Of a DNA stretch of 64,000 nt, positions 40,552 to 48,675 are shown piece after piece; within the stretch, counting starts at the first letter, position 1; every line of letters starts with the position of its first letter. Made by a program: the position numbers and the translations under genes. The notes beneath the pieces are model-generated. The model did no database searches and had not been told where the DNA came from. It saw only the letters and a program-made list of their open reading frames with translations. The DNA is from Bacteroidaceae bacterium (GTDB taxonomy: Bacteria; Bacteroidota; Bacteroidia; Bacteroidales; Bacteroidaceae), in the NCBI GenBank assembly GCA_017379075.1, contig JAFNXL010000010.1, forward strand, positions 84,025 through 148,024, in the 5' to 3' direction.

Positions 40552-40676
40552 ATAAAGACAAAAGACATTCTTCCTTCTCTCCAAAAACAACAGGAGAAGG
40601 GTCGAAACGCGGAAAACAAACACACCAACAGGGGGCGTTCAGCAAGCGAATTCGCCCGCAGTTTGAAGGCCCGATT

Positions 40677-40797
40677 TTTACATCACGATGTAAACAGACT
40701 TACCGTTCTATGTAAACGCACTTACCTCACTATGTAAATCTGTTTACACTTAAGGGTAAATGCGTTTACAATCCAATGCAAGCGCAATGTAAACGCA
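40677..40797. repeat. Array of 22-bp degenerate palindromic repeats (GTAAA-N4-yTTAC)
   Basis: Five consecutive 22-bp units start at 40677, 40699, 40721, 40743 and 40765, with a half unit after them. The conserved word is a 14-bp dyad GTAAAnnnnyTTAC at 40690, 40712, 40734 and 40756, degenerating at 40778. The inner sequences go AGAC-like, CGCA-like, then their reverse complements: GTAAACAGACTTAC pairs with GTAAATCTGTTTAC, and GTAAACGCACTTAC with GTAAATGCGTTTAC, each with one mismatch. Spacers differ, so it is neither CRISPR nor a simple satellite. 22 bp is two helical turns. Confidence 0.85.
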
Positions 40798-41121
40798 ACG
40801 CGCTGAATACTAAATCACAATCACATTTTTCAGTTGACAGATAAAATCGAAAAGGTTACTCTTATTGGGGAAGACAAAGGCGGCTCAGGCCTTTACGTCA
40901 AGTTCATATTTTCGTTCTTCTTGCGTGTGTACTTTTGCAACACACTAATCAAGCCCAAACACGGCAAGCAGATACGGATTTGAGATTATGAAACGAGAAA
41001 GTTTAAGGCATCAATTCTGTCAAATCTTTTTACCACGTCTTTCCTGTATTACAGAAGCCTTTTAAGGTAAAATATGGTGCAAATCCAGAAAAAAGCCAAT
41101 AACCCCCTAATACAGGGTTTC

Positions 41122-41194
41122 CAATTGGGAAAAAAAATTTCTCCAACTGGAAACATATTTTTTTTCAACTGGGCACTTTTTTCCGCCCAACTGG
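41122..41194. repeat. Array of CAAyTGG words at exact 22-bp pitch
   Basis: CAATTGG at 41122 and CAACTGG at 41144, 41166 and 41188 are spaced by exactly 22 bp. Flanking bases make each word a short dyad (CCAATTGG, CCAACTGG). The 15-bp spacers are T/A-rich and not conserved. The array lies about 85-155 bp downstream of the RhuM-Fic stop. Confidence 0.8.
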
Positions 41195-41278
41195 GCATTT
41201 CTCATATATGCCATTAAGACCATCATCCTAATGGCACATAATTTTGTAAAGATTCTTTACTATAATGGAATCGTATTA

Positions 41279-47362: not shown

Positions 47363-48556
47363 ATGAAAATCCTTGTATTGAACTGCGGAAGTTCATCCAT
47401 CAAATATGCGCTCTATGACATGACCAACCAGAGCGTAATCACCAGTGGCGGCATTGAGAAAATCGGACTGCCCGACTCATTCATCAAGATGAAGGTCAAC
47501 GGCGAGAAGGTGCAGATTGACCGCCCCATTGAGGAACATACTGCCGGCGTGCAGTTCATCTTTGAAGTGCTCACCACCGGCGACTATGCCGTGCTGAAGA
47601 GCCTTGACGAACTGGATGCTGTGGGCCACCGCATGGTACACGGCGGTGAGAAGTTCAACAAGAGCGCCATCCTCACCCCCGAAATCATGGAAGTGTTTGA
47701 GGCTTGCAACGACCTGGCCCCCCTGCACAACCCCGCCAACATCAAGGGAGTGAACGCAGTGAAGGCACTGTTGCCCGAAATCAAGCAGGTTGGCGTGTTC
47801 GACACCGCCTTCCACCAGACCATGCCCGACTATGCCTACATGTACGCCCTGCCCTATGAACTGTACGAGAAATATGGTGTGCGCCGCTATGGTTTCCACG
47901 GCACAAGCCACCGCTATGTAAGCCAGCGCGTGTGCGAGTTCCTGGGCATCGACCCCGAGAAGAGCCGCATCATCACCTGCCACATCGGCAACGGTGCTTC
48001 CATCGCAGCCGTGAAGTATGGCAAGTGCGTGGACACCAGCATGGGTCTCACTCCCTTGGAAGGCCTCGTCATGGGAACCCGCAGCGGTGACATCGATGCC
48101 GGAGCGGTAACCTTCATCATGGACAAACTCAATCTGGACACCAAGGGCATGAGCAACCTGCTGAACAAGCAGAGCGGTCTGGCCGGTATCAGCGAACTGA
48201 GCAGCGACTTCCGTGACATCTTGGCTGGCATTGCCAACGGAAACGAGAAGGCCCGTCTGGCAAAGGACATGTACTTCTATCGCATCAAGAAATACATCGG
48301 CCAGTATGCCGCAGCAATGGGTGGTGTGGACGTTATCCTGTTCACCGGCGGCGCCGGCGAAAACCAGTGGGAGGTTCGTAGCGAGACCACTTCCGGACTG
48401 GAGTTCATGGGCATCAAGATTGACAATGAAAAGAACCAGGCTTGCCGTGCCACCGAAGCTGTCATCAGCGCGGACGACAGCCAGGTTAAGGTTTGCGTCA
48501 TCCCCACCGATGAGGAACTGATGATTGCCCTTGACACACAGGCCCTGGCCGGATAA
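47363..48556 (+). CDS. ackA: Acetate kinase
   Basis: AckA transfers phosphate from acetyl phosphate to ADP. The 397-residue ASKHA-fold protein has the N-terminal signature VLNCGSSSIKYALYDM, GHRMVHGGEKF, FDTAFHQTMP, HLGNGAS-like CHIGNGASIAAVK, GLVMGTRSGDIDAG and VDVILFTGGAGENQ. It ends shortly before two strong dyads. It is cotranscribed with pta. Confidence 0.96.
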   Translation: MKILVLNCGSSSIKYALYDMTNQSVITSGGIEKIGLPDSFIKMKVNGEKVQIDRPIEEHTAGVQFIFEVLTTGDYAVLKSLDELDAVGHRMVHGGEKFNKSAILTPEIMEVFEACNDLAPLHNPANIKGVNAVKALLPEIKQVGVFDTAFHQTMPDYAYMYALPYELYEKYGVRRYGFHGTSHRYVSQRVCEFLGIDPEKSRIITCHIGNGASIAAVKYGKCVDTSMGLTPLEGLVMGTRSGDIDAGAVTFIMDKLNLDTKGMSNLLNKQSGLAGISELSSDFRDILAGIANGNEKARLAKDMYFYRIKKYIGQYAAAMGGVDVILFTGGAGENQWEVRSETTSGLEFMGIKIDNEKNQACRATEAVISADDSQVKVCVIPTDEELMIALDTQALAG

Positions 48557-48573
48557 TCCTATAAAACGAAAAA

Positions 48574-48589
48574 ACGCACCGCGGTGCGT
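48574..48589. other. Perfect 16-bp palindrome downstream of ackA
   Basis: ACGCACCGCGGTGCGT is fully self-complementary. It lies 17 bp past the ackA stop and just ahead of the long terminator hairpin. It could form a first hairpin of a tandem terminator or be a protein-binding dyad. Confidence 0.5.
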
Positions 48590-48593
48590 GAGC

Positions 48594-48657
48594 AAACGGA
48601 ATGCTTTCCGATGGCCGATGCAATGCATTGCGTTGGCCAATGGAAAGCATTCCGTTT
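48594..48657 (+). terminator. Long-stem terminator of pta-ackA
   Basis: A 64-nt near-perfect hairpin has outer arms AAACGGAATGCTTTCC (48594-48609) and GGAAAGCATTCCGTTT (48642-48657), then GGCC/GGCC and GCAATG/CATTGC inner arms. ATTTTGTTATT follows on the plus strand. It also separates the convergent SDR gene. Confidence 0.75.
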
Positions 48658-48675
48658 ATTTTGTTATTAGGGGGC

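Follow-up and report, generated by a model that had tools for sequence, protein, structure and literature searches.

A window of 64,000 nucleotides (the whole stretch of DNA that was analysed) from a Bacteroidaceae bacterium contains a short array of palindromic dyads upstream of a type I restriction-modification operon. What is this array, and does it belong to that operon? A preliminary description, made from the letters alone, had proposed five 22-bp units containing four GTAAA-N4-YTTAC dyads, and had suggested that their geometry would fit protein binding (a filament or cooperative dimers) or two interleaved RNA stems. On recheck, the coordinates of the four dyads were exact (Table 1), the unit starts at 40677, 40699, 40721, 40743 and 40765 were all recovered, and the A-B-A'-B' order was found as described, A' and B' each differing at a single position from the reverse complement of A and B, respectively. 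The dyad centres recur every 11 bp, a second dyad type, YTTAC-N8-GTAAA, supplying the alternate ones. The fifth unit, at 40765, is only a half, with GCAAG after its TTTAC. Two consecutive exact dyads at the 22-bp pitch were observed in none of 200 dinucleotide shuffles of the window. The preliminary description had missed a conserved right end, degenerate in this copy, and the ten other genomic copies.

Table 1. Coordinates of the dyad array in the window
Feature	Position	Strand	Basis
Whole element (approximate edges)	40673..40813	+	Core common to 11 BLAST copies, right-end consensus
Left half-dyad TTTAC-N8-GTAA	40677..40693	+	
Dyad 1, GTAAACAGACTTAC	40690..40703	.	
Dyad 2, GTAAACGCACTTAC	40712..40725	.	
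Dyad 3, GTAAATCTGTTTAC	40734..40747	.	
Dyad 4, GTAAATGCGTTTAC	40756..40769	.	
Right end GTAAACGCAAC-GCG-CTGAATACTAA, degenerate copy of GTAAATGCAAT-N3-TTGATAATCAG	40789..40813	+	

CRISPR loci have near-identical repeats of ~23-50 nt and spacers of similar length; the 14-bp dyads and 8-bp spacers observed here bear out the earlier view that the array is not a CRISPR. Its position 5' of the restriction operon was also correctly described (178 nt 5' of the HsdM ORF), but this is not a feature of the family. A GTAAA-type array of another Bacteroidales MAG (L129:4582-4705) adjoins an HsdM-like ORF that clusters with that of the window, which is possibly a coincidence.

The array is dispersed in its own genome. 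A BLASTn search with window positions 40600-40860, which demanded neither pitch nor half-sites, found 11 places including the window, and the ten other copies were 75-88% identical over 75-146 bp. The ten own arrays that we tabulated have dyads at 22-bp steps, L017 having three full dyads. A two-dyad pattern (at most two mismatches) matched the whole own genome 57 times, against 0 for the backward control. When at most one mismatch was permitted, the pattern was present in 10 of the 139 genus genomes (47, 38 and 52 matches in G000, G090 and G099, respectively), and the control had 2 matches in one genome. The exact three-dyad pattern was found in at least 110 stretches of named genomes, and all 80 titles among the matches listed were Bacteroidales. 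The search for the 22-bp pitch in other genomes, which had been suggested as a check, found it both in genus genomes and in named Bacteroidales genomes and did not refute the preliminary reading. In B. fragilis Q1F2 we counted 14 arrays; all consist of four units except one, which has five, and the right end is present on 13 of the 14. The distribution of the GTAAA family is nevertheless patchy: 6 of 201 own-family genomes and 3 of 25 genera match, and in the order sample the matching genomes were 4 of 393, namely G000 and three with 3-mismatch matches that we read as simple tandem repeats. BLASTn of the array in relatives gave hits in 0 of 36 same-genus genomes and two weak, short matches in the order. 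No BLAST match to the array DNA was obtained in the phage or plasmid collections, and the three-dyad pattern found one stretch in viral contigs. We concluded that the array in the window is one dispersed copy and is not tied to the restriction operon.

These copies share a common anatomy. Among 136 arrays of at least three units in the fetched loci, a set in which some loci occur twice or are orthologous, the commonest number of units was four (58 arrays), and the step was 22 in 536 of 540 cases, a count biased by the fetching of most loci with a 22-bp pattern and by a chain program that permitted steps of 21, 22, 23 and 44 only. Perfect half-sites were present in 93-100% of the four end-proximal units and in 36, 11, 3 and 0% further left, figures that, like the pitch, lean on a search demanding both. 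The end is one-sided: 104 of 120 non-identical arrays match GTAAATGCAAT at 8 or more of 11 positions, the score being the best of up to 32 placements and having no shuffled control. This end lies 18-19 nt past the last dyad in 102 of the 104 and is followed by the weaker N3-TTGATAATCAG. The right-end pattern matched in 11 of the 11 array genomes searched (a twelfth, L093, stood outside this set) and the controls gave 0. No array among the 120 is contained entirely in an ORF of at least 100 aa kept by the mechanical caller. Among the 74 with usable neighbours, 28 are in convergent, 12 in divergent and 34 in co-directional context, and we detected no replication-strand bias of the arrays in B. 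fragilis (9 vs 4, p 0.27). One own copy (L011:8293-8430) has a PIN-domain gene nearby and lies upstream of a Cas9 ORF, at a distance of 212 bp; no Cas9 ORF was seen by eye beside the other own copies. A REP-associated tyrosine transposase gene at L018:10104-10643 (NF047646, 94.7 bits) has its own palindrome, CAGGCGAATTTCGAAATTCGCCTG, on both sides.

The half-sites are under stronger constraint than the spacers. In 16 array pairs of related species with at least one shared flank, most of the arrays having come from a pattern that demands half-sites, the half-sites differed at 3 of 619 positions and the spacers at 91 of 961 (odds ratio 0.047). For L220, which was reached through flank homology alone and has one flank, not both, in common with its partner, the differences were 0 of 32 in half-sites vs 12 of 48 in spacers (p 0.0013). 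Within genomes, with flank-sharing array pairs left out (one in G000 and one in B. oleiciplenus), spacer identity at the same index compared with other indices was 0.65 vs 0.46 in G000, 0.79 vs 0.54 in B. oleiciplenus, 0.77 vs 0.49 in B. stercorirosoris and 0.67 vs 0.60 in B. fragilis, and B. rodentium showed no such increase (0.43 vs 0.42). These identities point to whole-array copying in three of the five genomes. The earlier view that slippage does not explain the array holds for the own copies, which have their spacers in common index by index; near-identical tandem units do occur in some relatives (L089 and L146).

L103 is without a ~560 bp block that contains the array in L136, and a clean empty site was not obtained among the loci compared. 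Inspection by eye found no IS, MITE, terminal inverted repeats or target duplication at the array. Several own copies have one flank in common with a relative (pairs L012/L220, L014/L217, L016/L212, L011/L201 and L017/L221), and the homology ends at or near the element edge. The edges look as if the arrays were rearrangement breakpoints, in a comparison that had no control for ordinary synteny breaks.

The interleaved RNA stems were not supported by the folding analyses. Both strands of the arrays fold better than shuffles, which is expected of palindromic arrays. Swapping the spacers, however, left the folding unchanged, the mean z being -0.03/-0.13 for the 10 own arrays, -0.27/-0.35 for 25 own-genus arrays (the 10 own included) and 0.11/0.12 for 79 other arrays. 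The A-B-A'-B' order is present in only 6 of 104 arrays (2 of the 10 own), and spacer-pair complementarity across the arrays was mixed. On account of the spacer swaps and the rarity of this order, we rejected interleaved stems as a general feature. Rfam gave no match at the gathering score, and three weak matches were all below it.

We observed a recurrent neighbour of the arrays, a gene of the DUF6078 family (PF19555), which was found next to a GTAAA array in seven genomes, at a single locus in each among the loci examined (7 of the 120 arrays). The distances from its stop codon to the first dyad are 118 bp in B. stercorirosoris, 117 in B. oleiciplenus, 105 in Bacteroides C.10_2, 57 in a Parabacteroides MAG, 87 in B. 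fragilis, 55 in G099 and 67 in an Alloprevotella MAG, and in all seven the 3' end of the gene faces the array. Each of the seven genes matches the Pfam model (187 bits for the first member vs a cut-off of 27). The link was noticed post hoc (random-slot product 1.4e-5), and clustering of the neighbours of the 120 arrays gave two larger groups, of 14 and 9 loci, which by eye we read as kinases and TonB-dependent receptors.

When the flanks of all 14 B. fragilis arrays were scanned, the gene was found at one. An HMM built from the seven proteins recovered, in 2.32 Mb, these seven (two fetched twice), one remnant and no other full copy. The remnant (L263:2294-2449, own genome) comprises the start and part of the C-terminal region, its middle missing, and lies beside a ACTTAAGT 22-bp array. 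We found no intact DUF6078 gene in ~0.6 Mb of the 3.0 Mb of the own genome and none in the window by HMM scan, so the window copy is array-only. At a site common to G000, G090 and G099, only G099 has the gene. The protein is ~145 codons long. Sixteen aligned members have in common four invariant cysteines, C18, C23, C29 and C60 (L087 numbering), and G74; the cysteines suggest a putative metal site. There was no match among solved structures, no known catalytic motif was recognised, and no DUF6078 was found in viral contigs.

An independent test of the linkage came from DUF6078 genes found by protein similarity alone, using tblastn with the L087 protein against plasmid and phage collections. 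Four plasmid-collection and five phage-collection records were obtained and all nine were examined; the latter five are unverified faecal scaffolds filed as phage that may be bacterial. Besides these scaffolds, the genes come from Bacteroides, Parabacteroides and Treponema. Their proteins are 24-54% identical, and four of the nine bear the DUF6078 name in their own records. A 22-bp-pitch array was present directly behind the stop codon at 9 of 9 loci, against 0 of 18 control stretches, a test that is independent of the seven-locus link but small. The strongest self-similarity between lags 15 and 44 was at lag 22 in eight loci and lag 44 in one (z 6.4-10.0), in a region whose start, relative to the stop codon, ranged from 14 bp upstream to 55 bp downstream; the controls, taken upstream and downstream at the same loci, peaked at z 3.5-5.1 and never at lag 22 or 44. 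Including the seven GTAAA loci, the gene is linked to an array at 16 of 16 intact DUF6078 loci examined.

The words of these arrays, as read by eye, are GTGNCA (L299), AGTAC (L300), TTGCC (L305) and, at five loci (L301, L302, L303, L304 and L306), GTTTC; L307 is without a clear word. P. distasonis has two DUF6078 genes with different array words. One of its two arrays has matches at 29 places, in 11 records, and the other at 13, in 7 records. All these records are from Parabacteroides, and the four that we opened bear one strain name. Two dispersed copies of these words that we examined are periodic at lags 44 and 22. Two further searches with other DUF6078 queries gave no new records, and the Treponema record has a second place that matches another DUF6078 query.

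Arrays of this pitch are not confined to the GTAAA word. A sequence-blind lag scan of the window and the ten array loci gave 26 hits, 15 of them at lag 22, and five of these 15 have other words. A further 339 kb of own sequence, remote from the GTAAA arrays, gave 35 hits, of which 13 were intergenic, at lags 22 (5), 44 (1), 21 (2), 41 (2), 42 (2) and 18 (1), and 22 lay in ORF space. Seventeen of the latter were at lag 60, and these look like masked or low-complexity sequence because a shuffled own sample likewise gave 17 hits. In contig loci of the named genomes, 18 hits were scored as other than GTAAA and 13 of them were at lag 22; a variant of GTAAA (L149) and two loci that duplicate each other (L120, L135) are among them. 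The scan also gave three of four hits at lag 22 in G657, one lag-21 hit each in G716 and the B. fragilis sample, and in G135 two lag-22 hits of seven, outside intergenic space. Of 28 arrays at lags 21-23, 18 are not GTAAA. A dyad score of at least 6/7 was reached by 7 of these 18, three of the seven being one word, and by 7 of the 10 GTAAA arrays, compared to 3.5% of uniform random 22-mers.

Several of the other arrays lie close to GTAAA arrays. Window positions 41101-41200, 0.3 kb from the array in Table 1, hold a second 22-bp-pitch array with CCAAYTGG palindromes and a conserved CCCCCTAATACAGGGTTTCC edge, which has relatives in L010, L012, L014, L016 and L230. A lag-22 array with GGAATGC/GCATTCC and CAATGCATTG dyads is found at window positions 48556-48665. 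GTACC/GGTAC arrays with 22-bp steps adjoin GTAAA arrays at L014:8918-8988 and L016:2810-2880, and the same repeat is present beside GTAAA arrays in G090 and G099. Between the same flanks, G090 (L213) has a GTAAA array and a 652-codon ORF, whereas the own genome (L264) has a ACTTAAGT array. Tandem repeats of 41 bp, in several near-identical copies, occur at L010:3494-3900, and another 41-bp repeat at L012:330.

The data described above probably reflect a two-part, REPtron-like system, composed of a DUF6078 gene and its cognate dyad arrays, of which the window has an array-only copy. The first part would be the gene, and the second the 22-bp-pitch dyad array behind its stop codon together with the dispersed array-only copies, different DUF6078 lineages apparently pairing with different dyad words. 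Because of the linkage, the dispersal and the constraint, we infer that the DUF6078 protein recognises the dyads, presumably as a dimer, with one dimer per two helical turns. The protein recognition envisaged in the preliminary description thus gains support, at the level of sequence, from the constrained half-sites and the recurrent cognate gene. A gene with its array may be autonomous, and the array-only copies may depend on it in the way that REP depends on RAYT (the REP-associated transposase).

What the protein does with the dyads could take more than one form. It may be a mobilising enzyme and the arrays selfish, their half-sites kept because the enzyme needs them. Gene plus array occupies different loci in different species, array-only copies are dispersed, whole arrays appear to have been copied in three of five genomes, and the gene stands at the array site in G099 but not at the orthologous sites in G000 and G090; with no recognised catalytic motif, no target duplication seen, and constraint at loci common to species that suggests retention, we regard mobilisation as possible but on balance unlikely. 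We are likewise doubtful that DUF6078 is a host DNA-binding protein, of architecture or regulation, whose operators are the arrays. The half-site constraint at shared loci and the predominance of four-unit arrays (13 of 14 in B. fragilis) would suit such a protein, but the arrays lie behind the gene and not in its promoter in 16 of 16 cases, the distribution is patchy (6 of 201 family genomes) and the 9 vs 4 split shows no replication-strand bias. An RNA-binding protein that recognises the dyads in hairpin form within 3' UTRs, among them that of its own transcript, would explain the array that follows the stop codon at 16 of 16 loci, the excess of convergent (28) over divergent (12) contexts and single strands that fold better than shuffles; it is improbable given that the spacers add no folding, that the invariant part is a sequence, GTAA/TTAC, and that no Rfam family matches.

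Two further explanations were considered. Neutral minisatellites lying by chance behind the genes could account for the near-identical units in L089 and L146, but against the 9 of 9 vs 0 of 18 result and the half-site constraint this is very improbable. REP/BIME sequences moved by a RAYT seem to us scarcely credible. There is indeed a RAYT near the C69 copy, at ~1.6 kb, and the two orthologues of this copy likewise have one alongside. The RAYT is, however, flanked by a different palindrome of its own, NF047646 has no match in 8 of 9 named genomes with arrays, and PF01797 is absent from G095, which has arrays; on these three grounds we disfavoured the RAYT as the mover.

Returning to the two-part system, we are inclined to think that DUF6078 genes and 22-bp-pitch arrays make up an undescribed class of gene plus dispersed sites, with a protein unrelated to RAYTs and with joint diversification of protein and word. 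A genome could then hold several pairs (two were seen in P. distasonis), the class would extend beyond Bacteroidota to Treponema, and the many 22-bp arrays with other words in the own genome (CCAACTGG, GTACC, ACTTAAGT and CAATGCATTG) would also belong to it, the gene having been broken or lost in some of them. Such a system offers a functional lead for DUF6078, a protein family with no assigned function, and explains one class of the repeats found between genes in a dominant gut lineage. If true, it would represent a second, independent bacterial solution to the RAYT/REP role, or else paired DNA-binding proteins and operator arrays. Since proteins and words vary naturally, a single purified protein and a panel of oligonucleotides would suffice to test the question.

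In the literature covered, from which most subscription papers are absent, we recognised no paper describing the arrays and none with the term DUF6078. Plasmid iterons and multi-dimer operator arrays have a pitch of about two turns; the arrays described here differ in being dispersed in the chromosome and in lying behind the gene of the candidate binder. In Bacteroides fragilis, the VNTR loci TR1 (23 bp) and TR5 (22 bp) are non-coding tandem repeats that figure only as typing markers in PMC7585543. They resemble our arrays in repeat length, and the printed TR1 unit contains, by our own reading, a 14-bp palindrome, but both carry other words. The BrickBuilt MITE of Porphyromonas gingivalis, as presented in PMC4596501, is intergenic, with 19 copies in one strain and central 23-nt repeats between a leader and a tail. 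It is thus also a multicopy intergenic Bacteroidales element with central short repeats, but these are direct repeats without spacers, and it has IS-like terminal inverted repeats. The closest comparison is with the REPtron, in which, according to PMC6006769, a RAYT/TnpA-REP gene is flanked by REPs and REPs are dispersed in the genome. The GTAAA arrays are likewise dispersed extragenic palindromes, but a cognate RAYT flanked by the repeat was not found, and the gene that recurs beside the arrays encodes DUF6078 rather than a Y1 transposase. The GT[AG]G foot of REPs given in the same text is absent here, the half-sites being GTAA/TTAC, and arrays of 22-bp pitch stand behind the gene. What the two have in common is a gene beside its own palindromes, dispersal of these same palindromes between genes, and the capacity of a single genome to accommodate several gene-word pairs.
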